Below, piece after piece: positions 8,076 to 30,775 of a stretch of DNA of 64,000 bases. The stretch is taken from assembly GCF_030063305.1 (NCBI RefSeq), contig NZ_JASISV010000004.1, forward strand, positions 1-64,000, given 5' to 3'. Numbering within the stretch: the first letter of the stretch is position 1; each line of letters opens with the position of its first letter. This DNA is from Salinibacterium sp. G-O1 (lineage in GTDB: Bacteria > Actinomycetota > Actinomycetes > Actinomycetales > Microbacteriaceae). Both the position numbers and the translations under genes were made by a program. Below the pieces are notes generated by a model. The model was not told the origin of the DNA and ran no database searches. It was given only the letters and a program-made list of their open reading frames with translations.

Positions 8076-8104
8076 TTGACAGACCCACGAACACCCCATA
8101 GTGT
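8076..8104 (+). promoter_or_regulatory. Promoter P1 of the oxidase-epimerase operon
   Basis: TTGACA at 8076-8081, a 17-bp spacer and TAGTGT at 8099-8104. The same three elements with identical hexamers and spacing occur at 15820-15848 in front of the ABC importer operon. The operator-like element begins 6 nt after the -10, over the expected transcription start. Confidence 0.7.
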
Positions 8105-8110
8105 TCTGAC

Positions 8111-8131
8111 TTGTATACAGATACGGATACA
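8111..8131. promoter_or_regulatory. GntR-type operator of the 8-21 kb regulon, copy 1
   Basis: TTGTATACA-N5-GGATACA. The first part is nearly the palindrome TTGTATACAA, which fits the FadR-subfamily pattern TNGTN(1-3)ACNA. The second GATACA part repeats one half-site. Copy 2 at 15857-15877 shares all 16 defined bases. The likely ligand is the GntR regulator encoded at the end of this operon. Confidence 0.72.
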
Positions 8132-8191
8132 AGGTCACCGTTGACCGGCTCACTGCCTGCGCCACGGTGCCTCCAGAACCTAAGGAGTCCT

Positions 8192-9676
8192 GTGAGCCAG
8201 ACACCAGAGTCCGACGGGGTGAGCGGCACCAGCTACCTTCGGGGCCAGATCGTCCGAGAACTTTCCGCGGCCATCGGTGCGGCGAACGTCAGCACGGAGG
8301 CGACAGAACTTCAGGCCCAGGCCGCAGACTGGTCGTGGTACTCCAAGTACCTCGCCTTCAAGAACCTCGAGCAGCCCTCCGCCGACATCGCGGTCACGCC
8401 GGCGAACACCGCCGAGGTCGAGCGCGTCATTCAGATCGCCTCGGACTACCGCATCCCTGTCACGACCCGGGGCGGCGGCAGCGGCACCCAGGGTGGCACC
8501 TTCGCTCCGTACGGCGGAATCTCGCTAGACCTGACCAGACTCACCGACATCGTGGACATCGACGAAAAGAGCCTCGTCGTCACGGTCGGCGCCGGCATCG
8601 ATGGGCCCACTCTCGAGGCTGAGCTCAATGAGAAGGGCCTCACGCTCGCCCACTACCCCGGCTCGTATCACCTGGGTGCCACCATCGGCGGCTTCATCGC
8701 CGCGCGTGGCTCCGGCGTCGTAAGCACGAAGTACGGCAAGGCCGAAGACCAGGTTCTTCAGCTCGAAGTCGTCGTACCTCCCGGCAAGACCGTCAAGACT
8801 CTGGCCGTGCCGAGTCACGCCGCGGGATCCGACCTGCTCCAGTCGTTCGTCGGCTCGGAGGGCACCCTCGGAGTCATCACCCAGGCCAGCCTGCGCGTCG
8901 ACCCGCTGCCCGAGTCGAGGGGCTTCCTGTCGTTCAGCTTCCCCGACATTTTTGCGGGTATCGAGGCCGGCCGGCTCATCATGACGAACCGGCTCCGCCC
9001 TGCGGTCATCCGTCTCTACGACGAAGCCGACAGCAAGAAGCTGCAGGACTGGGTGGGCACCCCGTTCACCGGAACCCTGATGGTCATCATGTGCGACGGC
9101 AGCAAAGAACTCGTCGACTACGAGACAAAGGCCATCACGGCCCTCGTCGAGAAGGCCGGCGGGTCGAGCCTCGGGCCCGACGTCGGCCAGACCTGGTGGG
9201 ACGGCAAGTACGAGCCGTACGCGAAGGGCAAGCTGCCGCAGCCTCCACTGATGTACGGCACCTTCGACCAGGTCGCTCGGTTCGTGGACATCCCGAACAT
9301 CTATCGCGCAAAGAAGCAGGTCATCGAAGAGAAGTTCAGCGAGTACGGTGCGCGCTACACCGCCCATCTGTCGCACTGGTACGACTGGGGCGCCATGCTC
9401 TACGACCGCTTCTATGTCGATGAGCCACCGACCGATCCGGCCGAAGCGATGGATCTTCATGACCGACTTTGGGATGCAGGCATCCTGACCGGCATGGAGA
9501 ATGGTGGCGTTCTCAACGACCACCACGGTGTCGGAATCAAACTGGGGCGCTTCATGCGTCCGCAGTATGGCCACGGTTTCGAACTGATGCGCCAACTCAA
9601 GGATGCGTGGGATCCGGATGGGATCATGAACCCGGGCAAGCTCGGGTTCGGCCCCCCTCGCAACAGCAAGTGGTAG
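8192..9676 (+). CDS. FAD-binding oxidoreductase of the VAO/AGPS-like family
   Basis: A 494-residue flavoprotein with the PCMH-type FAD domain first (pyrophosphate loop PVTTRGGGSGTQGG near residue 90; GSYHLGATIGGFIAARGSG near 160) and a C-terminal substrate domain ending in MNPGKLGFG, the usual C-terminal FAD-contacting motif. The middle segment with RPAVIRLYD resembles alkyl-DHAP synthase and D-lactate/glycolate dehydrogenase relatives. It should oxidise a hydroxy acid or sugar-derived alcohol; the substrate is unknown. The start is a GTG with AAGGAG just upstream. The in-frame ATG at 8111 lies inside the operator and is rejected. It is the first gene of a five-gene operon with an epimerase, a UPF0261 protein, a creatininase homolog and GntR. 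Confidence 0.82.
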   Translation: MSQTPESDGVSGTSYLRGQIVRELSAAIGAANVSTEATELQAQAADWSWYSKYLAFKNLEQPSADIAVTPANTAEVERVIQIASDYRIPVTTRGGGSGTQGGTFAPYGGISLDLTRLTDIVDIDEKSLVVTVGAGIDGPTLEAELNEKGLTLAHYPGSYHLGATIGGFIAARGSGVVSTKYGKAEDQVLQLEVVVPPGKTVKTLAVPSHAAGSDLLQSFVGSEGTLGVITQASLRVDPLPESRGFLSFSFPDIFAGIEAGRLIMTNRLRPAVIRLYDEADSKKLQDWVGTPFTGTLMVIMCDGSKELVDYETKAITALVEKAGGSSLGPDVGQTWWDGKYEPYAKGKLPQPPLMYGTFDQVARFVDIPNIYRAKKQVIEEKFSEYGARYTAHLSHWYDWGAMLYDRFYVDEPPTDPAEAMDLHDRLWDAGILTGMENGGVLNDHHGVGIKLGRFMRPQYGHGFELMRQLKDAWDPDGIMNPGKLGFGPPRNSKW

Positions 9677-9710
9677 AAGCAACAAAACCCAACTCAAAGA
9701 GGAGTGTGTG

Positions 9711-10613
9711 ATGCACCTGTCAATGCATAACTGGATGCGCGCTGAGCCGATCGAGACCACGATCGCGCGACTCGCGAAGTACGGCTACAAGTCGATCGAG
9801 ATCTCGGGTGAGGCCGAGAAGTACGATGCCAAGCACGTACGCGGCCTGCTCGACCACTACGGACTCAACTGCTGGGGCTCGGTGACCCTCATGGTCGGCG
9901 GCCGCAACATGCAGTCGGGCGACGAGGCAACCCGCGCCAAGAGCGTTCAGTACGTGAAGGACTGCATCGGGTTGGTCTCCGACCTCGACGGCAAGATCCT
10001 CACCCTCGTTCCCGGCGAGGTTGGCAAGATCACGCCAGATTCGACCCCCGAGAACGAGTGGAAGTGGCTCGTCGAGGGTGTCTCCGAGATCTATGAAGTG
10101 GCCGAGGCGAAGGGAGTGCGCGTCGGAATCGAGCCACTCAACCGCTTCGAGTCTTACCTCATCACCCGCGCAGAGCAGGCACTGGCGCTGTGTGACGCGG
10201 TCGGCCCGAACCTGGGTGTCGTTCTCGATGCGTTCCACATCAACATCGAGGAGAAGGACCTCTTCGAGTCGATCCGTCTGGTGGGCGACAAGCTCGTCGA
10301 CTTCCACGTCGCCGACAACAACCGCATGCCCGCCGGCTACGGAGATTACGACTGGAACAAGGTCATCGCCACCTTGAAGGAGGTCGGCTACGACGGTGCG
10401 CTCACCGCCGAGTTCGTGGCACCGGTTGACCGCACCCCGGCCAACAAGTACCCGAACGCGCTCGAGACCAACCTCGAGGGGCTCGACATTCCCGCGGACC
10501 AGCTCAAGTTCATCATCGACCACGGTTCGTCGATCCTCACCGAGGAGTTCTACGACTGGCTGGTGAAGGTCAACAGCGAAACGCTGCTGCCGCTCATCAA
10601 CGACACCTGGTAG
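9711..10613 (+). CDS. Sugar phosphate isomerase/epimerase (ketose 3-epimerase-like TIM barrel)
   Basis: A 300-residue AP-endonuclease-2 family TIM barrel. The metal and substrate residues of the D-tagatose/D-psicose 3-epimerase group are in place: GIEPLNRFES (Glu), VVLDAFHINIEE (Asp/His), VDFHVADNNR (His) and ALTAEFVAP (Glu). These enzymes move stereochemistry at C3 of a ketose through an enediol using Mn2+ or Co2+. GAGGAG lies 6 nt before the chosen ATG; the GTG one codon earlier is less well spaced. It follows the FAD oxidase by 34 nt and precedes the UPF0261 gene by 12 nt. The substrate may be a free ketose or keto acid rather than a phosphate. Confidence 0.84.
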   Translation: MHLSMHNWMRAEPIETTIARLAKYGYKSIEISGEAEKYDAKHVRGLLDHYGLNCWGSVTLMVGGRNMQSGDEATRAKSVQYVKDCIGLVSDLDGKILTLVPGEVGKITPDSTPENEWKWLVEGVSEIYEVAEAKGVRVGIEPLNRFESYLITRAEQALALCDAVGPNLGVVLDAFHINIEEKDLFESIRLVGDKLVDFHVADNNRMPAGYGDYDWNKVIATLKEVGYDGALTAEFVAPVDRTPANKYPNALETNLEGLDIPADQLKFIIDHGSSILTEEFYDWLVKVNSETLLPLINDTW

Positions 10614-10625
10614 CCGACTGAACTC

Positions 10626-11852
10626 ATGGGCAAAGTAGTCATCGTCGCAACGCTCGACACCAAGGGGCCGGAGGTTGCGTACCTGCGCGACAGGCTGAAC
10701 ATCCTCGGCCTCGAGACGCTCGTCGTTGACTCCGGAATCCTCGGCGAACCTGTGGGCATCGTGCCGGATGTGAGCCACTCCGAGTTGGCTGGGCGAGGTG
10801 GCATCACCCTCGCCCAGCTGCAGGGCTCCGGAACGCGCGGTCGTGCGGTAGAGACCATGCGTGAGCTGGTGCGTGACCTGGTGCGGGAGCGGTTCGCGGC
10901 CGGCGAGATCATCGGCGGCATCAGTGTGGGTGGCGTCGGCTCCGTGATGGGTGCGGCCGCCATCCAGGAGTTGCCCGTCGGCGTGCCCAAGATCGTCGTC
11001 GCGCCCACGGCATCCGGACACCACGAGTTCGGCCCCTATGTCGGCACAAAAGACGTCATGGTGGTTCACTCAGTCGTCGACATCCTCGGCCTCAACCCCG
11101 TCTCGACCACCGTGTTCGACAACGTCGCCGCTGCGATGTTCGGGATGCTCGCGCACGGGCATCCACTGACCCGCCCCGCGCAGGGGCAGAAGTTCGTCGC
11201 GACAACGATGCTCGGCAACACCACCGCCGCGGTCGGAGCGCTCAAGGATCGTCTCGCCGAGAACGGAATCGAGACTGTCGTCTTCCACTCCAACGGTGTG
11301 GGCGGTCGCGCCATGGAAGAGCTGGCGGGCGAGGGCCAGTTCGTGGGTGTGATCGACTACACGACCAACGAGATTAACGACCCACTCGTGGGCGGCATCC
11401 ACAATGGAGGACCAGACAGGCTCGCGACGGTGGGCCGTCTCGGCCTGCCCCAGGTGCTCGTACCCGGCTGCATGGACTTCTCCGTGTGGGCGGCCGGCTC
11501 GATTCCGGCCTCGATGCGCGCTCGCCCCGTCTACGACCACAACCCCGAGTACACCCTGGTGCGTGCGACCCACGACGAGAAGGCGCAGCTCGGCCGGATC
11601 TTTGCCGAGCGCGTCAATGAGACGACCGCCCCGGCGGCGGTAATCATGCCGATGCTCGGGCTCTCTATTCCCGCCACCCCCGACGGACCCTTCTGGGATC
11701 CCGAGGGTGATGCGCTCTTTCTCGCGGCACTCCGCGAGAACCTTCGGCCGGACATCCCGATCGAAACCGTCGACCTTCACATCAACGACCCCGACCTCGG
11801 CCGGCTTGCCGCCGACCGCTTTCTGTCACTCATCAACAAGGAGAAGCCATGA
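10626..11852 (+). CDS. UPF0261 / Tm-1-like ATP-binding domain protein
   Basis: A 408-residue member of the UPF0261 family, related to the N-terminal domain of tomato Tm-1. It begins GKVVIVATLDTKGPEVAYLRD, the conserved opening of the family, followed by the glycine-rich GGISVGGVGSVMG and VVAPTASGHHEFGPYVGTKD blocks and the second half containing VLVPGCMDFSVWA. ATP binding is known for the plant relative, but the bacterial function is not established to my knowledge. It overlaps the creatininase-family gene by 4 nt (ATGA), so the two products are probably made in fixed ratio and may act together. It could be a ligase-like or kinase-like step; I do not assign one. Confidence 0.85.
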   Translation: MGKVVIVATLDTKGPEVAYLRDRLNILGLETLVVDSGILGEPVGIVPDVSHSELAGRGGITLAQLQGSGTRGRAVETMRELVRDLVRERFAAGEIIGGISVGGVGSVMGAAAIQELPVGVPKIVVAPTASGHHEFGPYVGTKDVMVVHSVVDILGLNPVSTTVFDNVAAAMFGMLAHGHPLTRPAQGQKFVATTMLGNTTAAVGALKDRLAENGIETVVFHSNGVGGRAMEELAGEGQFVGVIDYTTNEINDPLVGGIHNGGPDRLATVGRLGLPQVLVPGCMDFSVWAAGSIPASMRARPVYDHNPEYTLVRATHDEKAQLGRIFAERVNETTAPAAVIMPMLGLSIPATPDGPFWDPEGDALFLAALRENLRPDIPIETVDLHINDPDLGRLAADRFLSLINKEKP

Positions 11853-12766
11853 ACCCCCGTCCCGAGCGCACCATCGCCCGCCTCACCGAGGGCGACGAAG
11901 ACTTCCGCGCTAAGTTCCGCTCCTGGAACCACGCCTACCTCTCCTACGTAGACATCGAGGAGTACCTCAAGACCAAAGACACGATCCTCGTTCCGATGGC
12001 GAGCACCGAGCAGCACGGCCCGCACCTCCCGCTCTACACAGACACCATCACGGCGGTCGAGGTTTCTGAGCGCGTCTCGGAGGCGATTGGTGTGCTGCAC
12101 ACCCCGCCCATCTGGGCCGGCTACTCGCCCCAGCACATGTACGGGGTGGGCCAGGGTCGCGGAACCGTCACCCTGCGGGCATCCACCCTCCTGAACCTCA
12201 TGAACGATGTCGCACGCAGCCTCATCCACCACGGGTTCAACCGCATCATCTTCATCAACGGCCACGGTTCCAACATCAAGGTCGTCGACCCGGTGCTGCG
12301 CAAGCTGCGCTACGAGACCGGAGCGCTCATCTCCTTCGTCAAGCCGTACATGGAACGCTACGAGGGCATCCTCGAGGGGCTCATGGAGAACCCGCCGGAG
12401 GAAACCCCAGGCTGGCACTCGAGCGAGCTCGAGACCTCGCAGGACATGGCGTGGAACCCCGACCTGGTGCGCATGGAGCGCGCGGTCGACACGCGGGCGC
12501 ACATCCCCGAGTTCCTGCCCAAGTCGTTCAGCAAGGACGATGGGATGCCGGACGCAGAGTTCGAGGGGTACCAGTACTTCAGCTTTCCGATGGACCACCA
12601 CGAGTTCGTCGAGAACGGCATCATCGGCAACCCGATGCGGGCCACCGCCGAGAAGGGCGAGGAGTCGTTCCGTCGGCTCAGCGAGCACGTTGCGCGCGGC
12701 ATCCTTGAGTTGCAGAAGGTGCCCGTCAACGTGCACACCCGCGAATTCATTGAGCGCACAATGTGA
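11849..12766 (+). CDS. Creatininase-family metal-dependent amidohydrolase
   Basis: A 305-residue protein of the creatininase/MftE superfamily. The metal-binding signature ASTEQHGPHLPLYTDTITA supplies Glu, His and Asp, and FINGHGSNIKVV supplies the later His. Known members hydrolyse creatinine or formamide rings, or trim peptides (MftE). No creatinine pathway partner is present, so the substrate is probably a lactam, amide or related bond generated by the neighbouring enzymes. It is translationally coupled to the UPF0261 gene and followed 45 nt later by GntR. At 305 residues it is longer than creatininase (about 260), with an insertion around the WHSSELETSQDM region. Confidence 0.83.
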   Translation: MNPRPERTIARLTEGDEDFRAKFRSWNHAYLSYVDIEEYLKTKDTILVPMASTEQHGPHLPLYTDTITAVEVSERVSEAIGVLHTPPIWAGYSPQHMYGVGQGRGTVTLRASTLLNLMNDVARSLIHHGFNRIIFINGHGSNIKVVDPVLRKLRYETGALISFVKPYMERYEGILEGLMENPPEETPGWHSSELETSQDMAWNPDLVRMERAVDTRAHIPEFLPKSFSKDDGMPDAEFEGYQYFSFPMDHHEFVENGIIGNPMRATAEKGEESFRRLSEHVARGILELQKVPVNVHTREFIERTM

Positions 12767-12811
12767 GTGTTTCCTCTGGCTATAGTTGCCTGATTACGAA
12801 ATGGGTACGGC

Positions 12812-13483
12812 ATGACTCTTGACGATGCGGGTTCGCGGGTAGATAGCGCCTACGAGTGGCTGCTCGGTGAAATCACCGGTTTCAAGATCCGGTCGGGGGC
12901 GCCGCTGTCGGAGAACCGTATTGCGACCCAGCTCGGGATCAGCCGCACACCGGTGCGCGAAGCGTTGCAGCGCCTCGAGAAAGAGGGGCTCGTCAAGCGC
13001 ACAGACAACGCGCGCTTCGCCGTCTCGCAGCTGACGATCGCCGAAGTCAACGATGCCTGCGACCTGCTCGAGGTGCTCGATACCTACATCTGCCGCAAGG
13101 CTTCGAGCAAGCTGACCGACGACGAAACCGAGCTCCTGAAGCAGAGCGTCGCCGAGATGCAGCGGGCCGCGAAAGAGGATGACCGCGAGTCCTGGTCTGC
13201 GGCCGATCTTGCCTTCCACCGCACCGTCAACTCGATTGCGGGCAATCAGCTCGTCGCCGAGACGGTCAAAGAGACCCGTCGGCGCGTGCAGCGGTTCTGG
13301 ATGCGCGCAACGTCGCTGCAGTCCCGACTCGAGGCGTGCTCCAGCGAGCACCTGGTGCTGGCCAACGCGATCATTTCCCACGACTACGAGGCGATCGAGC
13401 CTGCGGTCAAAGAGCACATCGGGCACATGCGTCGCCGGATGATCGAAATGCTCGAGTCGGCTGCCGCCATCCTCGGAGATTAA
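12812..13483 (+). CDS. GntR-family (FadR/FCD) transcriptional regulator
   Basis: A 223-residue regulator with an N-terminal winged helix (PLSENRIATQLGISRTPVREALQRLEKEGLV, residues about 30-60; shown only as the landmark helix-turn-helix) and an alpha-helical FCD ligand domain with the metal-coordinating pattern FHRTV and later His residues. FCD regulators usually respond to a pathway carboxylic acid. It is the last gene of the operon starting at 8192. The operon promoter and the importer promoter both carry TTGTATACA-type sites, so it probably represses both and is itself autoregulated. Confidence 0.88.
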   Translation: MTLDDAGSRVDSAYEWLLGEITGFKIRSGAPLSENRIATQLGISRTPVREALQRLEKEGLVKRTDNARFAVSQLTIAEVNDACDLLEVLDTYICRKASSKLTDDETELLKQSVAEMQRAAKEDDRESWSAADLAFHRTVNSIAGNQLVAETVKETRRRVQRFWMRATSLQSRLEACSSEHLVLANAIISHDYEAIEPAVKEHIGHMRRRMIEMLESAAAILGD

Positions 13484-13489
13484 CCACCT

Positions 13490-13540
13490 CGGGCTCACAC
13501 CCGGGACATCCGCTGGGCGGCTGTCCCTGGTGTGAGCCCG
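13490..13540. terminator. Bidirectional terminator between convergent genes
   Basis: Arms 13490-13508 and 13522-13540 form a 19-bp stem with one mismatch (GGGCTCACACC pairs with GGTGTGAGCCC, and GGGACA with TGTCCC) around a 13-nt loop. It starts just after the GntR stop and precedes the end of the convergent TIM-barrel gene. No clear U-tract is present, which is common in actinobacteria. Confidence 0.75.
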
Positions 13541-13555
13541 GAGTCGTTGCTGGAG

Positions 13556-14566
13556 TTAGTCTTTCGCGGCGAAGGCGTCGTCGAACGATCCGGTCGGCAC
13601 ATTCCAGAGCAGCGAGCGAACGTAGGCGAGGCCGGCGGGTGCGCCCTCAAGCCGATCCATGCCGGCATCCTCCCACTCCACCGAGATCGGCCCGTTGTAG
13701 CCGATCGAGTTGAGTGCGCGGAACGCGTCCTCCCACGGCACGTCGCCGCGGCCGGTCGACACAAAGTCCCAGCCGCGCCGCGGGTCGGCCCAGGCGCCGT
13801 GCGATCCAAGAACCCCGTTGCGGCCGTTGCCCATGCGCATCCGGGTGTCTTTGCAGTCGACGTGGTAGATCCGGTCAGCGAAGTCGAGGATGAACCCCAC
13901 GGGGTCGAGCCCCTGCCACACCATGTGTGAGGGGTCCCAGTTCAGCCCGAAGGCCTCGCGGTGACCGATCGCCTCGAGGGTCTTGACCGTCGTCCAGTAG
14001 TCGTAGGCGATCTCAGAGGGGTGAACCTCGTGCGCGAAACGAACCCCTTCCGAGTCGAAGACGTCGAGGATGGGATTCCACCGGGTGGCGAAGTCTTCAT
14101 AGCCGGCGTCGATGACGTCCTGCCCGACGGGCGGGAACATCGCGACGTACTGCCAGATGCTTGAGCCGGTGAACCCGACGACCGTGTCGACGCCGAGCTT
14201 GCGGGCGGCGATCGCGGTCATCTTCATCTCTTCTGCCGCGCGCTGGCGCACCCCCTCGCCATCACCGTCGCCCCAGACTTTCGCGCCGACGATGGCCTTG
14301 TGCCGGAAGTCGATCGGGTTGTCGCAGACGGCCTGTCCCTTGAGGTGGTTCGAGATGGCGAAGAGCTTGAGGTTGTACTTGTCGAGGATGTCGAGGCGCG
14401 ACTGCACGTAGGCGTCGTCTTCGGCGGCGCGCCACGGGTCGAGGTGGTCACCCCAACACGCGAGCTCGAGGCCGTCGTAACCCCATCCGCTCGCGAGCTT
14501 CGCAACCTCCTCCAGAGGCAGGTCGGCCCACTGGCCGGTGAACAGGGTAACGGGGTGACTACTCAT
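13556..14566 (-). CDS. Sugar phosphate isomerase/epimerase family TIM barrel
   Basis: A 336-residue AP-endonuclease-2 type TIM barrel. Metal-site candidates are visible in [13 protein letters not shown] (Glu/His), [11 protein letters not shown] (Asp/His), [10 protein letters not shown] (His/Asp) and [11 protein letters not shown] (Glu). It is more like IolE/IolI-type dehydratases and isomerases than the ketose 3-epimerase at 9711. AAAGGAG precedes the start. It lies 30 nt downstream of a Gfo/Idh/MocA dehydrogenase on the same strand; such pairs commonly work on keto-sugars or keto-inositols. The pair sits between the two operons of the TTGTATACA regulon and probably belongs to the same pathway. 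Confidence 0.82.
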
Positions 14567-14596
14567 TCTTTGCTCCTTTGCGGGGTGGTGACGGTG

Positions 14597-15769
14597 TCAG
14601 TCGAGCCGGATATACGAACCGCTGTTGCTGGCGCTTTCCTCGATCGCGGCCAGCACGCGCTGCACGCGCAAGCCTTCCGCGAACGAGGGAGTTGATGGGG
14701 TGGAGTCGCGGATGCTCCACAGGAACTCCGCGAACTGGTGGGTGAAACTGTGCTCCCATCCGATGATGTGACCATCCGGCCACCATGCTCCCACGTAGGG
14801 GTGGTCGGCTTCGGTCACGAGGATGCGCCGGAAGCCCTGCTCACCGGCGGCGTCGCGTCCATCGAAGAACTGCAACTCGTTGAGATTTTCGAGGTCGAAG
14901 GTGATCGCCCCCCGGTCTCCGTAGATCTCGAGGGTGAGCCCGTTCTTCCTGCCGAGGGCCATGCGGGTCACCTCCATCTGAACCACAGCACCTCCGGAGA
15001 GTTCCCCGGTGCCCCATGCCGCGTCATCCACCGTCACCGGCTCCAGCGGACCGCCGCCACCTGAGCCCAGGATTCCTCCGCCTCCGCTGTCACCGGCCGG
15101 TCGTTCGGTGACAAAGGTACGCAGGCCGCCAGAGATCGCCAGAATGTTCTGCCCGGTAACATGCTGCACGATGTCGGCGACATGGGAGCCGAGATCGCCG
15201 AGGGCGCCGCTGCCGGCATCCTCTTTGCGCAATCTCCAGCTCATGGGGCCAGATGAGTCTGTCAGCCAGTCCTGCAGGTAGGCGGCGCGCACGTGCCGGA
15301 TGGTCCCGATCCGTCCGTCTGCGATGAGCCGTTGAGCAACAACGAGCGCTGGCACCCGCCGATAGTTGAAGTTGACGATCGCATGCTGGCCGCGGGCCTC
15401 GGCGGCCTCGAACGCCGCCGCCATCCGCTGGGCCTCCTCCACGCTGTTGGCCAGGGGCTTCTCGACGATGACGTGCTTGCCGGCCTCGAGTGCCGCGATG
15501 GCCACCTCGGCGTGCATGCGGCCGGGGGCGCAAATGTCGACGATGTCGATGTCGTCCCTGGCGATCACCTCACGCCAGTCGCTCGCCGTCGACAACCAGC
15601 CAAGCTTCTGCGCGGCTGCCTTCACCGCGTCTGGTTGCCGCCCAACAAGTACTGCTTGTTCGACAGGCGGCACGTCGAAATAGGATGCGACGTTTCGCCA
15701 CGCCTGCGAGTGGGCCTTGCCCATAAACGCGTATCCGATCGAGGCGACTCGAAGTGGGGAATTGGCCAT
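14597..15769 (-). CDS. Gfo/Idh/MocA family NAD(P)-dependent oxidoreductase
   Basis: A 390-residue dehydrogenase with an N-terminal Rossmann fold (RVASIGYAFMGKAHSQAW; the usual GxGxxG is GYAFMG), the family EKP motif in HVIVEKPLANSVEEAQ with the conserved Lys, and the C-terminal Gfo/Idh domain with DLGSHVADIVQHVTG. Members oxidise or reduce sugar, inositol or keto-sugar carbons with NAD(P). The start MANSPLRV has AAAGGG upstream; the longer frame reaching 15826 is rejected. It is divergent from the ABC importer operon across a region holding a regulon operator, so it may be co-regulated. Confidence 0.86.
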   Translation of the reverse strand: MANSPLRVASIGYAFMGKAHSQAWRNVASYFDVPPVEQAVLVGRQPDAVKAAAQKLGWLSTASDWREVIARDDIDIVDICAPGRMHAEVAIAALEAGKHVIVEKPLANSVEEAQRMAAAFEAAEARGQHAIVNFNYRRVPALVVAQRLIADGRIGTIRHVRAAYLQDWLTDSSGPMSWRLRKEDAGSGALGDLGSHVADIVQHVTGQNILAISGGLRTFVTERPAGDSGGGGILGSGGGGPLEPVTVDDAAWGTGELSGGAVVQMEVTRMALGRKNGLTLEIYGDRGAITFDLENLNELQFFDGRDAAGEQGFRRILVTEADHPYVGAWWPDGHIIGWEHSFTHQFAEFLWSIRDSTPSTPSFAEGLRVQRVLAAIEESASNSGSYIRLD

Positions 15770-15819
15770 GGTGTGCCCTTTCGCTTCGTTGCGATTGTGT
15801 TGGGGAATCCGGCTGCCGA

Positions 15820-15848
15820 TTGACACGGATACCTGCTGGCTCTAGTGT
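15820..15848 (+). promoter_or_regulatory. Promoter P2 of the ABC importer operon
   Basis: TTGACA at 15820-15825, a 17-bp spacer and TAGTGT at 15843-15848. Hexamers and spacing are identical to P1 at 8076-8104. The operator begins 8 nt after the -10, so a bound repressor would cover the start site. Confidence 0.7.
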
Positions 15849-15856
15849 ACAACTAC

Positions 15857-15877
15857 TTGTATACAAGGCGGGATACA
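15857..15877. promoter_or_regulatory. GntR-type operator of the 8-21 kb regulon, copy 2
   Basis: TTGTATACA-N5-GGATACA, here with the full palindrome TTGTATACAA at 15857-15866. It matches the site at 8111-8131 at all 16 defined bases. It lies between the divergent Gfo/Idh gene and the importer operon. Confidence 0.74.
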
Positions 15878-15928
15878 TTTTCGTGTCCCGGATTGAATGG
15901 TGATTCACAGAGTTGTGAGACAGGTGAC

Positions 15929-16795
15929 ATGGATCAATTTTTACTCATCGCGTTGAATGGGTTGACCCTTGCCGCCGTTTATTTCCTGGTGGCCAGCGGG
16001 CTGACCCTGATCTTCGGACTCATGCGCGTCATCACCATGGCCCACGGCACCAGCTACCTCCTCGGCGGATACATCGGGTACGTCATTGCCCGCGAGACCG
16101 GAAACTGGCTTCTGGGAGCGCTCGGAGCCGCTATTGCGGTCGGTGTCCTCGGCCTCATCATCCATCAGGTGCTCATCCGTCGATTCCAGGATGACGACAT
16201 GCGCGTCGCGCTCGTCACCCTCGGCGTCTCGCTGATCGGCACCGACCTCATGCTCGCGGTGTTCGGCGGTACCGCCACCCAGGTCGCGATCCCGGCAGCC
16301 TTCCAGGTCGGACTGCCGCTACCCGGTCTGGGGAGCTACCCGCTCATCCGCCTGCTGATCCTCCTCGTGGCCGTGCTGGTCGGCGTCGGTCTGACTCTCT
16401 TCATCAACAAGACCCGGTACGGATCGATCGTCAGGGCCGGTGTGGACGACTCCCAGATGACCTCGGCGACCGGCGTGAACGTGCGAGTGGTCTTCGCATC
16501 GATCTTCTTCCTCGGCTCGGCGCTCGCCGGATTCGCCGGAGTCGTGGGCGGAACCCTGTTCCCGCTCCTGCCCGGACAGGACGGCAGCTACCTTCTCTTC
16601 TCGCTTGTGGTCGTGATCGTGGGCGGCATGGGCAGTGTGCCGGGAGCTGCTATCGGCGCAGCGCTCGTCGGCATCGTGTCGCAGTTCGCACTCGTCTATG
16701 CGCCGACGTACTCGCTCGTGCTGACCTTCGCACTCATGGTCGTGGTGCTTGCCATCAGACCCCAGGGCATCCTGGGCAGGAGGTCGGCAACATGA
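15929..16795 (+). CDS. Branched-chain amino acid-type ABC transporter permease (LivH-like)
   Basis: A 288-residue inner-membrane permease with about eight hydrophobic segments and the LivH hallmark GLMRVITMAHGTSYLLGGYIG near the N-terminus and GMGSVPGAAIGAALVG in the cytoplasmic coupling loop. It belongs to the HAAT family, whose members import amino acids but also urea, short amides and aromatic acids. The start MDQFLLIALNG aligns with the family; upstream codons fall in the operator. It is the first gene of an importer operon (two permeases, binding protein, two ATPases) ending in an SDR. Confidence 0.9.
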   Translation: MDQFLLIALNGLTLAAVYFLVASGLTLIFGLMRVITMAHGTSYLLGGYIGYVIARETGNWLLGALGAAIAVGVLGLIIHQVLIRRFQDDDMRVALVTLGVSLIGTDLMLAVFGGTATQVAIPAAFQVGLPLPGLGSYPLIRLLILLVAVLVGVGLTLFINKTRYGSIVRAGVDDSQMTSATGVNVRVVFASIFFLGSALAGFAGVVGGTLFPLLPGQDGSYLLFSLVVVIVGGMGSVPGAAIGAALVGIVSQFALVYAPTYSLVLTFALMVVVLAIRPQGILGRRSAT

Positions 16796-17889
16796 CCGCG
16801 CCAGAGACTCTCGTAACCCCAACTGCGACCGGACGATCCCGGTCCCTCTGGGCCCGCTACAGCTGGATCGGATGGGTGGTGGTGCTGGGGCTGGCGCTGC
16901 TGTTCCCCTACGTCGTGGATCGCCCGCGGTTCTGGCTGCCCAACATCGGTGTGCGCAGCCTGTGGCTCGGCATCATCGCCATGAGCCTTGTATTCCTGAA
17001 CAGGTATGTTGGTCTGCTCTCGCTCGCGCAGGTCACCATCGCCGGCATTTCGGCGTACGGCGTCGGCTACGTGATGGTGACGCTGGATCAGCCGTTCTTC
17101 ATCGCCATCCCCGTGGGTATCACCGCCGGCACGGTCGCGGGATTCCTCGTGGCGCTTATCGCGGCCCGCACCAAGGCCATCTACTTCCTCATGATCACGC
17201 TCGCGCTTGGCCAGGTGTTCTACTCGTACGCCTCACAGGCCATCGAAGTCACGAACGCCCGTCGAGGGCTTGCACCGATCAAGAAGCCAGACCTCGAGAT
17301 CATCAACCTCAACGACATCACGACGTTCTACTTCGCCGCGCTGCTCGCCGCGGTGATCTGCTTCCTGCTCTGCCGGTATGTCGCGGCATCCACATTCGGG
17401 ATGGCGCTGCAGGGCATCAGGGACAGCCCGGAGCGCATGGCGGCCCTCGGCTACAAGGTCAACAGGTACCGGATCGCCGCGATCACCTTCTCTGCGTTCA
17501 TCGCGTCGATCGGCGGGGTTGTGCTCGTCTTCGACCGCGCACAGATCGATCCGGATGTCGTCAGCCTCGGTTCCACCCTCGACGTGCTGGTCGTGGCGGT
17601 CATCGGCGGGATCGGCTCACTCGGTGGCGTGTTCATCGGCGCGATCATCCTGACCCTGCTCGACAACTTTGCTCAGGACTTCACAGACAGGTACATGACC
17701 CTCACCGGGATCGTGTTCATCCTCGTCCTGCTCTTCGCGCCGGCGGGCATCGCCGGCATCGGGGCGCAGGTAAAACGGGCCTTCGATCGCAGGCGGAAGA
17801 ACGCTTCCGACCCAGGCGATGACCCGCAGCAAGAACCGACGGCGACCCAGCCGACGGGTGAGGCAATCACGAAAGGAAAGCAGCAATGA
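16792..17889 (+). CDS. Branched-chain amino acid-type ABC transporter permease (LivM-like)
   Basis: A 365-residue LivM-type permease. It carries the conserved YVGLLSLAQVTIAGISAYG block (the LivM 'GxxSLGqaaf' region), the loop ALQGIRDSPERMAALGYKV and the coupling motif GGIGSLGGVFIGA. The C-terminus is a charged, disordered tail of about 35 residues. The start overlaps the previous stop (ATGA), and the same overlap links it to the binding-protein gene, so translation of the membrane components is coupled. Confidence 0.9.
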   Translation: MTAPETLVTPTATGRSRSLWARYSWIGWVVVLGLALLFPYVVDRPRFWLPNIGVRSLWLGIIAMSLVFLNRYVGLLSLAQVTIAGISAYGVGYVMVTLDQPFFIAIPVGITAGTVAGFLVALIAARTKAIYFLMITLALGQVFYSYASQAIEVTNARRGLAPIKKPDLEIINLNDITTFYFAALLAAVICFLLCRYVAASTFGMALQGIRDSPERMAALGYKVNRYRIAAITFSAFIASIGGVVLVFDRAQIDPDVVSLGSTLDVLVVAVIGGIGSLGGVFIGAIILTLLDNFAQDFTDRYMTLTGIVFILVLLFAPAGIAGIGAQVKRAFDRRRKNASDPGDDPQQEPTATQPTGEAITKGKQQ

Positions 17890-19154
17890 TGCTGAACAAC
17901 TGGAAAGGGCTGGTCCCGACGCTCGCCGTCGGAGCAGTCGTGGTCCTCGGCGTAACCGGCTGTAGCACTGGCGGCAGTGGTGGCGACGGTGGCGGCGATG
18001 CCGGCGGCGACACGATCAAGATCGGCGTGCTCGCGACCTCTGAGGGAAACCTCGCATTCGGTATGGGCGAGGCCAAGGCCGCAATCGCTGTCGCGATGGA
18101 GGCAATCGGGGGAACCGTCGACGGCGGTGAGATCGGCGGCAAGTCCATCGAGATCATCTACGCAGGCACCGACGGAACCTCGGGATCGGCGCAGACCCAG
18201 GTAAAGAAGCTCGTCGAGAACGACGACGTCGACATCGTGTTCGGCCCGGTCTCCGGTGACGAGGGTGAGGCTGTCGTGCAGTACGCACTGACGGTTCCCG
18301 AAGTGACCTTCGTCAACGGTTCAGCCAGCCCCGTCGGAATGACGCTCGAGGGCGCAGAGAACTTCTTCCGCTTCCACGGCGACTCGGCGATGTGGATGGG
18401 TGGCCTCGGCGACTACGCCTACGACGAAAAGGGTTACAAGAAGATCTACTCGATCGCCGAAGACTACTCGTTCCCCTACGACAACGCCGGAGGATTCTTC
18501 TCCGAGTTCTGCGCGGCCGGTGGCGAAGTGAACGGCAACTCATGGGTGCCCGTCGGCACCACCGACTACGCCACGATCATCGCTCAGATTCCTGCAGACA
18601 CGGACGCCGTCTATGTGGGACTCGGCGGCGCTGACGCTGCGTCGTTCCTGTCGCAGGCCGTCACCAACGGCGTAGACCTTCCGCTCGTCGGCGGGTCAAT
18701 CGCGGTAGACACGACCGCCCTCTCCGGTGACGCGAACATCGCGTCTGCTGCTGTCGGCACCATCACGGGTGGACCGGTGCCCGGTGCCGGGTACGACAAC
18801 CCGGAGTGGCAGCCGTTCGTGGATGCGTACGTCACGCAGCCCGATGCCTTCCCGAGCCCGAGCATCTTCTCCATCCTCTACTACAACTCGTTCCAGTCGC
18901 TGGTTCTCGGGTTGCAGGAGGTCGATGGCGACCTGAGCGACGGCCACGCCGGTCTGCGCGATGCTCTCGGCAGCCTCGACTGGAACTCGCCCACCGGGCA
19001 GATCTCGATGGACGAGAACCGCCAGGCGATCGTCGACAACTTCCTGATCGAAGTTCTTGACGAGGGGGGCACGCTGGTTCAGAAGAACATCAGCGAGGCA
19101 TCCGGCGTCACGCAGGGCACCACGGTCTACGACCGTTTCGAGGGTTGCCCGTAA
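17886..19154 (+). CDS. Substrate-binding lipoprotein of the HAAT-type importer
   Basis: A 422-residue lipoprotein: signal sequence, lipobox VTGC at residues 25-28 with Cys28 as the lipidation site, a Gly/Asp-rich linker, then a periplasmic-binding-protein type 1 (Peripla_BP_6) fold starting TIKIGVLATSEGNLAFGMGEAKAA. LivJ/LivK relatives bind amino acids; this one has a conserved-looking FGPVSGDEGEAV hinge but I cannot read the ligand from sequence. The neighbouring catabolic enzymes suggest a carbohydrate-derived or cyclic acid rather than leucine. A stem-loop follows the gene. Confidence 0.9.
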   Translation: MMLNNWKGLVPTLAVGAVVVLGVTGCSTGGSGGDGGGDAGGDTIKIGVLATSEGNLAFGMGEAKAAIAVAMEAIGGTVDGGEIGGKSIEIIYAGTDGTSGSAQTQVKKLVENDDVDIVFGPVSGDEGEAVVQYALTVPEVTFVNGSASPVGMTLEGAENFFRFHGDSAMWMGGLGDYAYDEKGYKKIYSIAEDYSFPYDNAGGFFSEFCAAGGEVNGNSWVPVGTTDYATIIAQIPADTDAVYVGLGGADAASFLSQAVTNGVDLPLVGGSIAVDTTALSGDANIASAAVGTITGGPVPGAGYDNPEWQPFVDAYVTQPDAFPSPSIFSILYYNSFQSLVLGLQEVDGDLSDGHAGLRDALGSLDWNSPTGQISMDENRQAIVDNFLIEVLDEGGTLVQKNISEASGVTQGTTVYDRFEGCP

Positions 19155-19165
19155 ACAGCAGTACC

Positions 19166-19193
19166 GGGCCGGCGTACGCGAGTGCGCCGGCCC
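19166..19193 (+). terminator. Intra-operon stem-loop after the binding-protein gene
   Basis: The perfect 9-bp arms GGGCCGGCG and CGCCGGCCC flank a 10-nt loop in the 64-nt gap between the binding-protein and ATPase genes. Such hairpins often shield the 3' end of binding-protein mRNA or attenuate read-through, giving more binding protein than ATPase. No U-tract, so I read it as partial. Confidence 0.65.
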
Positions 19194-19218
19194 ACCCATT
19201 CTTCTGAAAGGACCGATC

Positions 19219-19977
19219 ATGGCCGACCCCGCCCTCGTGGTGCGTGACGTGTCGAAGAGCTTCGGCGGCGTCAAGGCGATCCGCGACGTGAGTCTCGAAA
19301 TCGCCGCCGGTGAGCGCATCAGCGTCATCGGCACCAATGGTGCAGGCAAGTCGACCCTGTTCAACGCAATCGCCGGTGTGTTTCCCCCGACGACGGGTTC
19401 CATCCATCTGTTCGGTGAGGATGTCACTAGACTTCCCACGGCTACCCGCGCCCAGCGCGGACTCGCCAGAACGTTCCAGACGTCCCGACTCTTCGAGCAG
19501 CTCAGTGCCGCAGACAACGTCTTCATCGCCCTCGGCGGCAACGAGTTCCGCGGAGGGCTGCTGCGACCGGCTCGCTCGAACCCCAAGCGCTGGGAACGGG
19601 TCGAGCGACTGCTCGAACGTGTCGGCCTCCCCGGCCGGGGTGAGCAGCTCGTCGCTGACCTCTCGCACGGCGAGCAGCGGCAGCTCGAACTGGCCATGGC
19701 GCTGGCGCTGCAGCCGAAATTGCTGATGCTCGACGAACCCGCGGCGGGCTTCTCCCCGGCCGAGCGGGGCCACCTCATCACACTCCTGCGCGAGCTCCCG
19801 CAGGAGATCACGCTGCTGCTCATCGAGCACGACATGGACATCGCGCTGGCCGTGGCATCCAGAGTCGTCGTCATGCACGACGGCGAGAAGATTCTCGAGG
19901 GCACGCCAGCAGAGATTCGCAACAGCGCGCGCGTTCGCGAGATCTATCTGGGAGGTTCCATTGACCACGCAGCCTGA
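19219..19977 (+). CDS. ABC transporter ATP-binding protein (LivG-like)
   Basis: A 252-residue ATPase: Walker A GTNGAGKST, a LivG-type Q-loop GLARTFQTSRLFEQLSA, signature LSHGEQRQLELAMAL (variant of LSGGQ), Walker B LLMLDEPAAGFSP and H-loop LLIEHDMD. It energises the HAAT-type importer together with the following LivF-like protein. The start MADPALVVRD has GAAAGGA upstream; in-frame codons further upstream overlap the preceding gene and are rejected. Its end overlaps the next gene by 17 nt. Confidence 0.92.
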   Translation: MADPALVVRDVSKSFGGVKAIRDVSLEIAAGERISVIGTNGAGKSTLFNAIAGVFPPTTGSIHLFGEDVTRLPTATRAQRGLARTFQTSRLFEQLSAADNVFIALGGNEFRGGLLRPARSNPKRWERVERLLERVGLPGRGEQLVADLSHGEQRQLELAMALALQPKLLMLDEPAAGFSPAERGHLITLLRELPQEITLLLIEHDMDIALAVASRVVVMHDGEKILEGTPAEIRNSARVREIYLGGSIDHAA

Positions 19978-20680
19978 CGCCACCCACGAATTTCGGGTCA
20001 CCGACCTCAACGTTTACTACGGGCGCGTGCACGTGCTGCAGGACGTCTCGTTCTCCATGGGCACCGAGCCCCTCGGGGTCATCGGCCGCAACGGCATGGG
20101 AAAGACCACACTCGTGAAGGCGATCGCCGGGTTTGTTCCGGCTCGCAGCGGCTCGATCGAGTTCGAGGGCAAGGATGTTGCGGGCAAGCAGCCGTACCAA
20201 ATCAATCACGCCGGCATCGCCTACGTGCCCCAGGGCCGCCGCATCTTCCCGTCGTTGAGTGTGCACGAGCACCTGACCATGGTCGGCGCGAAGAAGAGCG
20301 CCCGGTGGAACGTTCCGGCGATCTACGACCTCTTTCCCCGTCTGGCCGAACGCCGCAAGAACAGCGGAGCTGCCCTGTCGGGTGGAGAACAGCAGATGCT
20401 CGCCATCGGACGGGCGCTTCTCTCCAATCCGCGACTAGTCGTGATGGACGAACCCAGCGAAGGTCTCGCCCCCGCGGTCGTCGATCATCTCGCCGAGGTG
20501 CTTCGCGGCGTGGTGCGGGAAGGCCAGGCCGTGCTGCTAATCGAGCAGAACCTGCGCTTCGCCACGGAGTTGTGCGACCGTATCCTCGTCATGGTCAACG
20601 GGCGGATCGCCGCAGACATGGCGGCCTCCGAGATCGCCAACAACCCCGAGGTGCAGAACAAGTACCTCGGTGTCGTTTAG
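19961..20680 (+). CDS. ABC transporter ATP-binding protein (LivF-like)
   Basis: A 239-residue ATPase with Walker A GRNGMGKTT (the LivF variant with Met), the LivF Q-loop segment GIAYVPQGRRIFPSLSV, signature ALSGGEQQMLAIGRAL, Walker B LVVMDEPSEGLAP and H-loop LLIEQNLR, in which the usual His is Gln as typical for LivF. The start is TTG, chosen because GGAGG lies 5 nt upstream within the end of the LivG-like gene. It pairs with the LivG-like subunit. Confidence 0.92.
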   Translation: MTTQPDATHEFRVTDLNVYYGRVHVLQDVSFSMGTEPLGVIGRNGMGKTTLVKAIAGFVPARSGSIEFEGKDVAGKQPYQINHAGIAYVPQGRRIFPSLSVHEHLTMVGAKKSARWNVPAIYDLFPRLAERRKNSGAALSGGEQQMLAIGRALLSNPRLVVMDEPSEGLAPAVVDHLAEVLRGVVREGQAVLLIEQNLRFATELCDRILVMVNGRIAADMAASEIANNPEVQNKYLGVV

Positions 20681-20689
20681 CCTGACAGC

Positions 20690-21400
20690 ATGACCTCACC
20701 CTTCGACCTGACGGGTCGCACCGCCGTGGTGACTGGCGCTTCGCGGGGCATCGGTGCGGGGATCGCGACCGCGCTCGCCGAGGCGGGTGCCGACGTCGTG
20801 CGTGTGGCGCGCTCGGGTGCGGACATCTCCGCCGACCTCGCCACGGCCGATGGTGCACTCGACCTGGTGGCACAGCTGGATGCGCTCGGGCGCCCCATCG
20901 ACATCCTCATCAACAACGCCGGAATCGCCGAACGCAATCCTGCCGAGCACCACACGATTCAGCAGTGGGACGTCACGCTTGCCGTCGACCTCACCGCCCC
21001 GTTCCTGCTCGCCCGCGAGCTGGGCGGTCGGATGCTCGAGCGCGGTTCCGGCAAGATCATCTTTCTCGGGTCGATGATGACCTGGCAGGGTGGCAGGAAT
21101 GTGGTCAGCTACGCCGCGGCCAAGTCGGGCGTCGCCGGCGTTGTGCATGCCCTCGCCAACGAGTGGGCGGATCGCGGGGTCAACGTCAACGCGCTCGCCC
21201 CTGGCTATATCGAGACCGACCTGACATCAGGCGCGCACACCGACCCGGAGCGCCGGGAGACGTTTCGTCAGCGGATTCCCGCGGGCCGCTGGGGAACTCC
21301 CGCCGATCTCGGAGGTGCGGCGGTGTTTCTGTCTTCCGCGGCATCCGACTATGTGCACGGCGTCGTGCTGCCCGTCGATGGCGGTTGGCTGGTTCGCTAG
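20690..21400 (+). CDS. Short-chain dehydrogenase/reductase (classical SDR)
   Basis: A 236-residue classical SDR: cofactor motif TGASRGIG, structural NNAG (INNAGIAE), catalytic Ser in LGSMMTW and YAAAK active site (Tyr, Lys), and the C-terminal VHGVVLPVDGGW. The best general match is 2-deoxy-D-gluconate or other sugar-acid 3-dehydrogenases (KduD-like), but that is inference. It lies 9 nt after the LivF-like gene and closes the importer operon, so it probably performs an early oxidation of the imported compound. Confidence 0.85.
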   Translation: MTSPFDLTGRTAVVTGASRGIGAGIATALAEAGADVVRVARSGADISADLATADGALDLVAQLDALGRPIDILINNAGIAERNPAEHHTIQQWDVTLAVDLTAPFLLARELGGRMLERGSGKIIFLGSMMTWQGGRNVVSYAAAKSGVAGVVHALANEWADRGVNVNALAPGYIETDLTSGAHTDPERRETFRQRIPAGRWGTPADLGGAAVFLSSAASDYVHGVVLPVDGGWLVR

Positions 21401-21468: not shown

Positions 21469-22785
21469 TTAGCCCTTTGCGGGAGCCTTGCGCGCGGCGG
21501 GCTTGCGCACGGTCGGGCGGGCGGATGCCACGGCATCCGCCGCGGCCGAATGCACAGCACGCGGCGCCAGGCGCTGCAGCTGCGTGACGTGCTTCGGGGC
21601 GAGTTCTTCGATGCTCGCGACCTCAAGCAGTTTCATCGTGCGCACAACCTGGTCAGACAGGATCTCGATCGTGCGGTCGACACCGGCACGCCCACCCGCC
21701 ATCAGCCCGTACAGGTAGGCGCGGCCGATGAGGGTGAACTTCGCGCCCAGAGCAATGGATGCCACGACATCCGCGCCGTTCATGATGCCGGTGTCGACCA
21801 TGACCTCGGTGTCGTTGCCGACCTCGCGCACGACCTCCGGCAGCAGGTGGAACGGGATGGGGGCGCGGTCGAGCTGGCGCCCGCCGTGGTTGGACAGCAG
21901 GATGCCGTCCACGCCCAGATCGGCAAGGCGCTTGGAGTCCTCGAGGTTCTGAACGCCCTTGATGACGAGCTTGCCCGGCCACATGGCGCGGATGATCTCG
22001 AGGTCCTCAAAGTCGATCGACGGGTCCATCGCCGAGTCCAGCAGCTCGCCCACGGTGCCGCCCGTGTTCGAGAGCGACGCGAATTCGAGCGGGGGAGTGG
22101 TGAGGAAGTCGATCCACCACCACGGTCGCGGGATCGCGTTGACGATCGTGCCGAGGGTGAGCTGTGGAGGGATGGAGAAACCGTTGCGCTTGTCGCGCAG
22201 TCTCGCGCCGGCGACGGGGGTGTCGACGGTGAACATGAGGGTGTCGAAGCCTGCCGCGGCTGCCCGCTCGACGAGACCGTACGAGATTTCTCGCTGCCGC
22301 ATCACGTACAGCTGGAACCAGTTGCGACCGTTCGGGTTCGCCGCTTTCACGTCTTCGATGGTCGATGTGCCCAGGGTTGAGAGCGTAAAGGGGATGCCAG
22401 CAGCTGCGGCCGCGCCGGCCCCGGCGATCTCGCCCTCGGTCTGCATGAGGCGCGTGAATCCGGTCGGGGCGATCCCGAACGGCATCGCGGACGTGCCGCC
22501 GAGCACCTGAGTGGTGGTATCCAGTTTTGACACGTCGCGCAGGATCGAGGGGTGGAACTCGATGTCCTCGAACGCCTGACGCGCGCGGGAGAGGGAGAGT
22601 TCACCCTCGGCGGATCCATCCGTGTAGTCGAAGGCGGCCTTGGGGGTGCGACGCTTCGCGATGTCCCGCAGCTCGTAGATCGTGAGCGCAGACTGGAGCC
22701 TGCGCTTCTTGCCGTCGAGCTCCGGTCCCTTGAACTTCATGAGCTTTGCGAGCTCTACGGGGTTGGGAAACTGTCGCTTTACCAT
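21469..22785 (-). CDS. FMN-dependent alpha-hydroxy-acid oxidase/dehydrogenase (LldD-like)
   Basis: A 438-residue member of the L-lactate dehydrogenase/glycolate oxidase family. The signature [14 protein letters not shown] near residue 290 contains the catalytic His and Arg, [18 protein letters not shown] provides FMN-phosphate contacts, and [19 protein letters not shown] is the final FMN loop. It turns L-2-hydroxy acids such as lactate into 2-keto acids. About 35 residues at the C-terminus form an Ala/Lys/Arg-rich tail that is not part of the fold. The start MVKRQFPNP overlaps the upstream GntR gene by 7 nt. L-lactate made by the nearby rhamnose pathway is an attractive substrate; this is inference. 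Confidence 0.85.
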
Positions 22786-23417
22786 TGCTGGTCCTCTCCA
22801 TGGGTAAGCAGTCGATCGCGGGCGCCATGGATGTGCTCGCGCATGAGGGTGGAGGCGCCTTCGGCATCTCCCGCGCCGATCGCGTCGAGGATCGCCTCGT
22901 GCTGGCCGCAAATGTCGTTGGCGCTGATCAGGTGGGCAGACTGCACCTGACCGATGCACAGCTCGATCTCGCCCATCAGCAGGTCGTGCATTTTGGACAG
23001 TCGAAGACTGGGCTGGCTGGCGACGATGGCCCTGTGAAACGCGATGTCGTGCCTGGCGAAATCCGGGTCGGTGCGAAGCGCACTGTTCGCGGCTACCGCA
23101 GCAGGGGGCACGGTGGCGCTGGAGGCGAGGGCAGCTGCCGCCTCGGCTTCGACGATCGCGCGGTTATAGAAGAGGTCGACGATGTCGTCGCGGCTCAACA
23201 GCGGCACACGCGCGGCGTGGTGCGGCTCCCGCCGCAGCAGTCCATCCGCGACGAGCCTTTCGATTGCCAGCCGGGCGGTGGGCCTGGCGACGGCAAACCG
23301 TTCGGCGACGGCGGATTCCGTGAGGGTCGAGCCCGGCGCATCCTGCTGGGTGATGATGCTGGCGCGGAGCTCGTCGTAGATGGCCCCGGGAAGCACGGTG
23401 TTGTCGATCGACATCAT
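22779..23417 (-). CDS. GntR-family (FCD) regulator of the LldD-like gene
   Basis: A 212-residue FadR-subfamily regulator: N-terminal winged helix ([20 protein letters not shown] recognition region) and an FCD domain with [15 protein letters not shown] and distal His residues ([12 protein letters not shown]) that usually coordinate a metal. It is the first gene of a two-gene operon with the alpha-hydroxyacid oxidase, as in LldR-lldD pairs. A double FadR-type operator lies 30 bp upstream of its start in the region shared with the divergent Gfo/Idh gene. Ligand is probably the hydroxy acid. Confidence 0.88.
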
Positions 23418-23446
23418 GCTCCCGCTTCATTGTGGATCCCGACTGG

Positions 23447-23481
23447 AATTGTCTAACAATCTAATGGATTGTTAGACAATT
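23447..23481. promoter_or_regulatory. Double FadR-type operator, nested palindrome
   Basis: The 15-bp arms AATTGTCTAACAATC and GATTGTTAGACAATT are perfect inverted repeats around TAATG. Each arm is itself a dyad, ATTGT-N3-ACAAT, matching the GntR/FCD operator pattern. Two regulator dimers could therefore sit side by side between the divergent gntR-lldD and Gfo/Idh transcription units. Confidence 0.85.
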
Positions 23482-23546
23482 ACGCAAGGGTGGGGCGCCG
23501 ATAAACTTCTGCGGTGTGCACTGTGGCGCCGAAATAGGAGAAGGTA

Positions 23547-25921: not shown

Positions 25922-25943
25922 CGCAGCCCCCCGCCCACTCCAT

Positions 25944-26023
25944 CCAAATGAAGGAGATTTCCGGCAGGATGCCTCGGCAGCGGCACACATGTGCGGCCCG
26001 ACCCCGAAATCTCCTTCATTTGG
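25944..26023. repeat. Intergenic long-stem inverted repeat (family member B)
   Basis: The perfect 18-bp arms CCAAATGAAGGAGATTTC (25944-25961) and its reverse complement (26006-26023) flank 44 bp. It lies between the aldolase/dehydrogenase and rhaB genes inside one operon. The core AAATGAAGGAGAT differs by one base from AAATGACGGAGAT in member A at 7453. Inside an operon it could attenuate rhaB or stabilise the upstream message. Confidence 0.82.
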
Positions 26024-26060
26024 GGAAGAGGCAGCGCGGCGGCGGCGCGGGGGACGGCAC

Positions 26061-28097: not shown

Positions 28098-28102
28098 GGT
28101 CT

Positions 28103-29269: not shown

Positions 29270-29278
29270 TGGTGTTCC

Positions 29279-29623: not shown

Positions 29624-29643
29624 CCCTCACCGCCTTCGTCATT

Positions 29644-29655
29644 GAATCGTTTTAA
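29644..29655 (-). promoter_or_regulatory. LacI-type operator upstream of rhaM
   Basis: TGAATCGTTTTA (one full half-site and a degenerate one) lies 20 bp before the rhaM start. It matches TGAATCGATTCA at 9 of 12 positions. It is in the region between the rhaM operon and the divergent LacI gene, where the regulator would be expected to act. Confidence 0.55.
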
Positions 29656-30751: not shown

Positions 30752-30775
30752 TATCGGGCCGATATTCGATCGGAC

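Follow-up and report, generated by a model that had tools for sequence, protein, structure and literature searches.

A tandem operator common to two operons points to a catabolic regulon around a UPF0261 protein in Salinibacterium sp. G-O1

Two operons of Salinibacterium sp. G-O1 start behind look-alike promoters, which raises the questions of whether they are controlled together and what chemistry they encode. We analyzed the surrounding 64,000 nt (hereafter, the window) and scanned the whole genome (3,143,343 bases). As noted originally, exact copies of TTGACA-N17-TAGTGT lie on the plus strand at 8076..8104 (promoter 1) and 15820..15848 (promoter 2), each followed on the same strand by an exact TTGTATACA-N5-GGATACA, at 8111..8131 (operator 1) and 15857..15877 (operator 2). 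Both operators consist of two GTATAC-like cores spaced 12 bp and located right behind the -10 box: GTATAC at 8113-8118 and GGATAC at 8125-8130 in operator 1, and GTATAC at 15859-15864 and GGATAC at 15871-15876 in operator 2. The two layouts had been called identical; the motifs are, but the gap from the -10 box to the operator is 6 nt in operon 1 and 8 nt in operon 2, so the layouts are only alike.

Within the window, even with one mismatch allowed, the promoter motif was found at these two places only (shuffle mean 0.04), and the operator motif had four matches with up to three mismatches, two of which were reverse-strand echoes (shuffle mean 0.03). The full motif is not common genome-wide, as neither part has a third exact match in 3.14 Mb. 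One other place matches the promoter at one mismatch and one other matches the operator at three, and a looser tandem form (≤2 mismatches) was listed at these two promoters only. With mismatches allowed, the genome-wide counts were close to those of backward-read controls (operator, 5 vs 3; looser tandem form, 4 vs 3; promoter, 3 vs 4), thus what counts genome-wide is that two exact double matches exist, where they lie, and that they are conserved. The bare core TTGTATACA is unspecific (6 matches genome-wide vs 9 for the backward control). Three further genomic places carry it outside the two operators, one where another GntR/FCD-like ORF begins and the other two, 6 kb apart, near PLP-enzyme-like and ABC binding-protein-like ORFs (all identified by eye). 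The bare core is probably a general FCD-type operator, and the tandem arrangement would confer specificity.

The predicted gene content of both operons was confirmed by Pfam and NCBIfam profile matches for ten proteins and by identity to known ABC genes. Operon 1 (plus strand) opens with an AGPS-like flavoenzyme with FAD_binding_4 and FAD-oxidase_C domains (8192..9676; hereafter, FADox), most likely starting at the GTG at 8192 behind AAGGAG rather than where the ORF opens at 8111. The -35/-10 spacing of its promoter is similar in many related FADox promoters. Its nearest solved relative is AGPS, and it matches GlcD-type 2-hydroxyacid enzymes; GlcD glycolate oxidase itself was rejected (TIGR00387, 171 bits vs a cut-off of 567.9). 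Next come a ketose 3-epimerase-like TIM barrel of the AP_endonuc_2 family (9708..10613; KEpi), a UPF0261 (Tm-1-like) protein with the Tm-1 fold and both its N and C domains above the Pfam cut-offs (10626..11852), and a creatininase-family hydrolase (11849..12766; Creat). The last gene (12812..13483) encodes a regulator of the GntR family, FCD subfamily (PF00392, 51.8 vs a cut-off of 27; PF07729, 83.5 vs 24.3).

Between the operons, on the minus strand, lie a second AP_endonuc_2 TIM barrel (13556..14566; TIM2) and a Gfo/Idh dehydrogenase (14597..15769). TIM2 is similar to 2-hydroxy-3-keto-glucal hydratase (structure matches 2zds and 8ro4, the latter being that hydratase). Gfo/Idh is levoglucosan-dehydrogenase-like, with levoglucosan dehydrogenase and scyllo-inositol dehydrogenase among its structure matches, and is below the cut-off of the former (NF052479, 331.6 bits vs 650). 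The divergent Gfo/Idh gene and the importer operon have the intergenic region 15770-15928 in common, so operator 2 is common to both.

The second operon (plus strand) encodes a LivH-type permease (15929..16795), a LivM-type permease (16792..17889), a HAAT-type substrate-binding protein (Peripla_BP_6, 17886..19154; PF13458, 147.9 vs a cut-off of 31.7), a LivG-type ATPase (19219..19977, start placed by eye), a LivF-type ATPase (19961..20680, start uncertain), and a KduD-like SDR dehydrogenase (20690..21400), which was rejected as KduD (TIGR01832, 257.4 bits vs 338.85). The permeases and ATPases are 42-55% identical to annotated branched-chain-type ABC genes, namely those of L117, a Thermomicrobium roseum plasmid (LivH 51%, LivM 42%, LivG 53%, LivF 55%). 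One binding protein, two permeases, and two ATPases in a single operon qualify as a HAAT importer, a family more familiar from the uptake of amino acids, amides, and aromatic acids. The best NCBIfam models of the binding protein are urea-binding, far below cut-off, and its structure matches include 4ey3 and 4evq types, which bind aromatic ligands.

The enzyme set recurs in other genomes, as had been predicted. Of 249 same-family genomes, 31 carry UPF0261, with no match in the 4 listed others of the genus, and FADox, KEpi, UPF0261, Creat, and GntR occurred together in 8 of 30 fetched loci, the own locus included. A single scan of genome contigs with the hydrolase as query gave 79 loci, in which UPF0261 was counted 76 times, FADox 67, KEpi 60, GntR1 45, Gfo/Idh 32, TIM2 25, LivH and the binding protein 23, and SDR 10. 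The four-enzyme core FADox-KEpi-UPF0261-Creat was complete in 55 of the 79. The hydrolase served to select the loci, and a good number of the contigs are short, which makes all these counts conditional on it and low. The loci span Actinomycetota, Chloroflexota, Rhodothermales, Trueperaceae, Poribacteria, and others, with some assignments that look mis-binned, and the four-enzyme pathway is also present in freshwater-type actinobacterial MAGs. Three loci labelled Rubrivirga, Clavibacter, and Bifidobacterium breve (L051, L064, and L113, respectively) closely resemble loci of freshwater or marine actinobacterial MAGs and are probably mis-binned or mislabelled. Three variants (L042, L053, and L107) combine FADox and the hydrolase with a more distant UPF0261 (44-45%), a different Gfo/Idh, and an old-yellow-enzyme-like protein; KEpi was not found in them, and CUT2-type transporter genes are present in L053 and L107.

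The footprint of the operator was sought in 40 loci whose GntR1 is >40% identical (665,678 bp). TGTATACA occurs there 46 times vs 7.0 expected from base composition, and three control palindromes 9, 0, and 2 times; 39 other loci have 14 vs 5.7 expected. Forty-five of the 46 sites precede FADox, LivH, Gfo/Idh, or SDR, with the remaining one inside Creat. None of 513 other ORFs has a site except by sharing one with a target promoter. Among readable loci, 26 of 35 have the site in front of FADox, 17 of 25 in front of LivH, and 12 of 21 in front of both genes; once look-alike promoters are removed, 20 of 29 have it ≤120 bp from FADox. Loci carrying both sites include the isolates Agreia sp. Leaf283 (L044) and Salinibacterium soli (L038). 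Inversion of the importer operon in G199 has left its site in place, and in L050, L051, L052, and L106 FADox and SDR have one site in common. No perfect site was seen at FADox in L039, L053, and L098, and none at LivH in L056 and L064.

Six diverged loci (L060, L062, L065, L066, L069, and L070) have the genes and no site at either FADox or LivH, and a search for a replacement motif in them found none. Their GntR1 is 41-44% identical, and its wing reads GF, vs RF wherever FADox has a site (26 loci), a contrast that was spotted post hoc and is confounded with ancestry.

The placement and conservation of the sites indicate, on sequence grounds, that operon 1 and the importer operon very probably form one regulon with a common tandem operator, as the original prediction held. 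That the promoters are alike by chance or by recent duplication, with no regulon behind them, is extremely unlikely: the genome offers two sites only, 7.7 kb apart, similar cores exist elsewhere, and the mismatch counts do not exceed the backward controls, but the spacers and flanks of the two promoters differ and 12 of the 21 readable loci have the site at both. We infer that the regulator is the GntR protein of 12812-13483. The TIM2 and Gfo/Idh genes had been described as lying between the operons; in L071 and L113 a site of its own precedes Gfo/Idh, so the pair probably belongs to the regulon.

The promoter and operator design conserved in relatives, with the enzyme set in several phyla, probably reflects a real catabolic pathway. 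Our best explanation, to which we give a probability of about 45%, is a substrate-inducible catabolic regulon with IolM-IolN-IolO-like chemistry. The GntR/FCD protein would bind the tandem operator and block transcription until its ligand is present; an operator that starts 6-8 nt past the -10 box is in keeping with a repressor acting at the start point, and the position of GntR at the end of the enzyme operon suggests autoregulation. The importer would take up a sugar-derived hydroxy compound (a glycoside, cyclitol, or sugar acid), and Gfo/Idh and TIM2 may process a glycoside-like form by 3-oxidation and hydration. FADox would oxidize a hydroxyl to a ketone, KEpi would invert the carbon adjacent to a ketone, Creat as a metal hydrolase would split the diketone so formed at a C-C bond, as has been described for IolN and diketo-inositol, and UPF0261 may handle a keto intermediate, possibly with ATP. 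The original reading is thus supported in part, by the shared regulon and the recurring enzymes; its order of import, oxidation, epimerization, and processing by UPF0261 and the hydrolase is tentative. The HAAT importer is not an obligatory part, as LivH and the binding protein are present in 23 of the 79 loci and CUT1, CUT2, or TTT genes are near other loci.

Oxidation, epimerization, and diketone hydrolysis are favored by the residues of KEpi and the hydrolase, by the IolO and IolN matches, and by neighborhoods in Thermus. KEpi keeps E142, E148, D174, H177, H200, R206, and E235 invariant in 14 aligned members, the residues expected of ketose epimerases. All 14 match IolO, the best NCBIfam model; the window copy is below cut-off and was not accepted as IolO, 5-keto-L-gluconate epimerase (NF041099, 136.5 bits vs 300). 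Its nearest solved structures are ketose 3-epimerases and TM_0416, the former matching as well as the latter. In Creat, E54, H56, H139, and E193 are kept in 16 of 16 aligned members, and the creatininase-family motifs are kept in the hydrolase members except L076, which is without the D65-equivalent residue. All 16 match IolN, the window copy again below cut-off. On Thermus plasmids, a 49% related hydrolase adjoins UPF0261, GntR, a zinc-binding dehydrogenase, and a TIM barrel; this barrel (L115) has no detectable KEpi homology at E 1e-5. Weak IolN-model matches were also seen elsewhere in the own genome, at 41445-41768 of the window and at C2:1016220-1016897 of another contig (27.5 and 37.7 bits).

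IolN-like chemistry as such is a tentative assignment, with the balance leaning against it. Creat scores higher with creatininase, its best NCBIfam and PDB match (TIGR04448, 133.6 bits vs 235), than with its second NCBIfam model, IolN, 3-dehydro-scyllo-inosose hydrolase (NF041098, 109.5 bits vs 245), and was rejected as either. The creatininase match and the urea-binding models of the binding protein would suit the breakdown of a cyclic amide or a comparable N-compound by a true amidohydrolase. We consider this highly improbable, as the creatininase score is well short of its cut-off, the ketose-epimerase and Gfo/Idh genes are out of keeping with it, and the model names IolN and MftE stand for other reactions within the creatininase family.

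The closest known system for diketone hydrolysis is the Thermotoga inositol route, IolG-IolM-IolN-IolO. Both have a Gfo/Idh dehydrogenase, a second dehydrogenation, a creatininase-family hydrolase, and an IolO-like epimerase (for IolO function, see PMC12632266). Here, a FAD enzyme replaces the zinc dehydrogenase, and UPF0261, the HAAT importer, and GntR control are added. The statement that no described pathway has this gene set is therefore modified: IolO as the best model for KEpi and IolN as the second for the hydrolase give a partial precedent, though both score below cut-off. Because KEpi and Creat stay below the creatininase, IolN, and IolO cut-offs, we did not file the pathway under those systems. 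It is a novel variation on known sugar, cyclitol, or acid-sugar catabolism.

The main rival to diketone hydrolysis is a 2-hydroxy-acid route of the oxo-tetronate kind, which we regard as doubtful. FADox, with an Fe-S-like partner in other phyla, would oxidize a 2-hydroxy acid, KEpi would move or epimerize the keto group, and UPF0261 would act as a kinase, giving a short ketose product. Oxo-tetronate (acid sugar) pathways likewise combine an oxidoreductase with a hydroxypyruvate-isomerase-like TIM barrel, and the Thermus cluster adjoins a class II aldolase and a TTT transporter. The GlcD-type matches of FADox fit this route, as do a Cys-rich, Fe-S-like protein encoded behind FADox in 25 non-actinobacterial loci (cluster 5, L079:7627-8742 and 24 others) and a LarA-like protein in 8 loci, Chloroflexota included (representative above the Ni-dependent lactate racemase cut-off). 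L071 has DhaL (above cut-off), a DhaK-like protein (below), and RpiB (subfamily cut-off reached), and L085 a DhaK-like protein; the LarA and DhaK/DhaL-RpiB loci fit this route as well as they fit IolN-like hydrolysis. On the other side, no Dak1 protein was found in the own genome, the oxo-tetronate scheme offers the creatininase-family hydrolase neither role nor counterpart, UPF0261 is only hypothetically a kinase, the Cys-rich representative matches no Pfam or NCBIfam model, and the 2-oxo-tetronate isomerase model scores far below cut-off (43.5 of 325). RpiB and DJ-1/PfpI-type genes are just upstream of FADox in L071, L068, L073, L098, L113, and L067, with CUT1-type transporter genes adjoining in some.

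The levoglucosan pathway, LgdA-LgdB1-LgdB2-LgdC (PMC7676230), likewise has a Gfo/Idh enzyme together with a relative of TIM2, the barrel that resembles 2-hydroxy-3-keto-glucal hydratase. It differs in that the dehydrogenase here is below the levoglucosan dehydrogenase cut-off, and nothing in the available part of that account corresponds to FADox-UPF0261-Creat.

UPF0261 is a family without settled function and, in plants, part of the Tm-1 virus-resistance protein. The known pairing of UPF0261 with TBST (PMC5028733) has the protein with both Pfam domains in common with our locus, but the TBST partner (PF09370) is missing here, with 0 matches in the own genome and none in six of seven other cluster genomes searched. 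In L117, the HAAT importer is directly before UPF0261, TBST, and GntR, with PEP/pyruvate-binding and PEP-utilizing genes further on. This neighborhood, the solved UPF0261 protein Saro_1862 with acetovanillone bound (title of 9mpy), and the 4ey3- and 4evq-type matches would agree with catabolism of an aromatic ketone or acid in which UPF0261 acts on an aryl ketone. Such a route is improbable: KEpi, Gfo/Idh, and TIM2 are of the sugar type, as are the CUT1/CUT2 transporters that some loci have, and no ring-cleavage gene was seen in the region.

On the most far-reaching interpretation, to which we give somewhat less than even odds, the multi-phylum pathway would be undescribed, with a TBST-free UPF0261 as a new enzyme class acting on a keto-sugar intermediate, coupled to a new C-C hydrolase subfamily of the creatininase fold. 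Of the 79 hydrolase-selected loci, 76, from several phyla, encode a hydrolase with 73-95% identity to that of the window, which points to one strongly constrained reaction. The common operator predicts co-induction of the two operons, and a regulon that links UPF0261 to three enzymes, a regulator, and an importer makes its reaction accessible to ordinary ligand screens.

LldD-like and rhamnose-type genes adjoin the cluster in the window (21469-31000), and LldD, RhaB/RhaD or zinc-dehydrogenase, SDR, and FAH-hydrolase genes are near the cluster in L041, L045, L055-L057, and L105.
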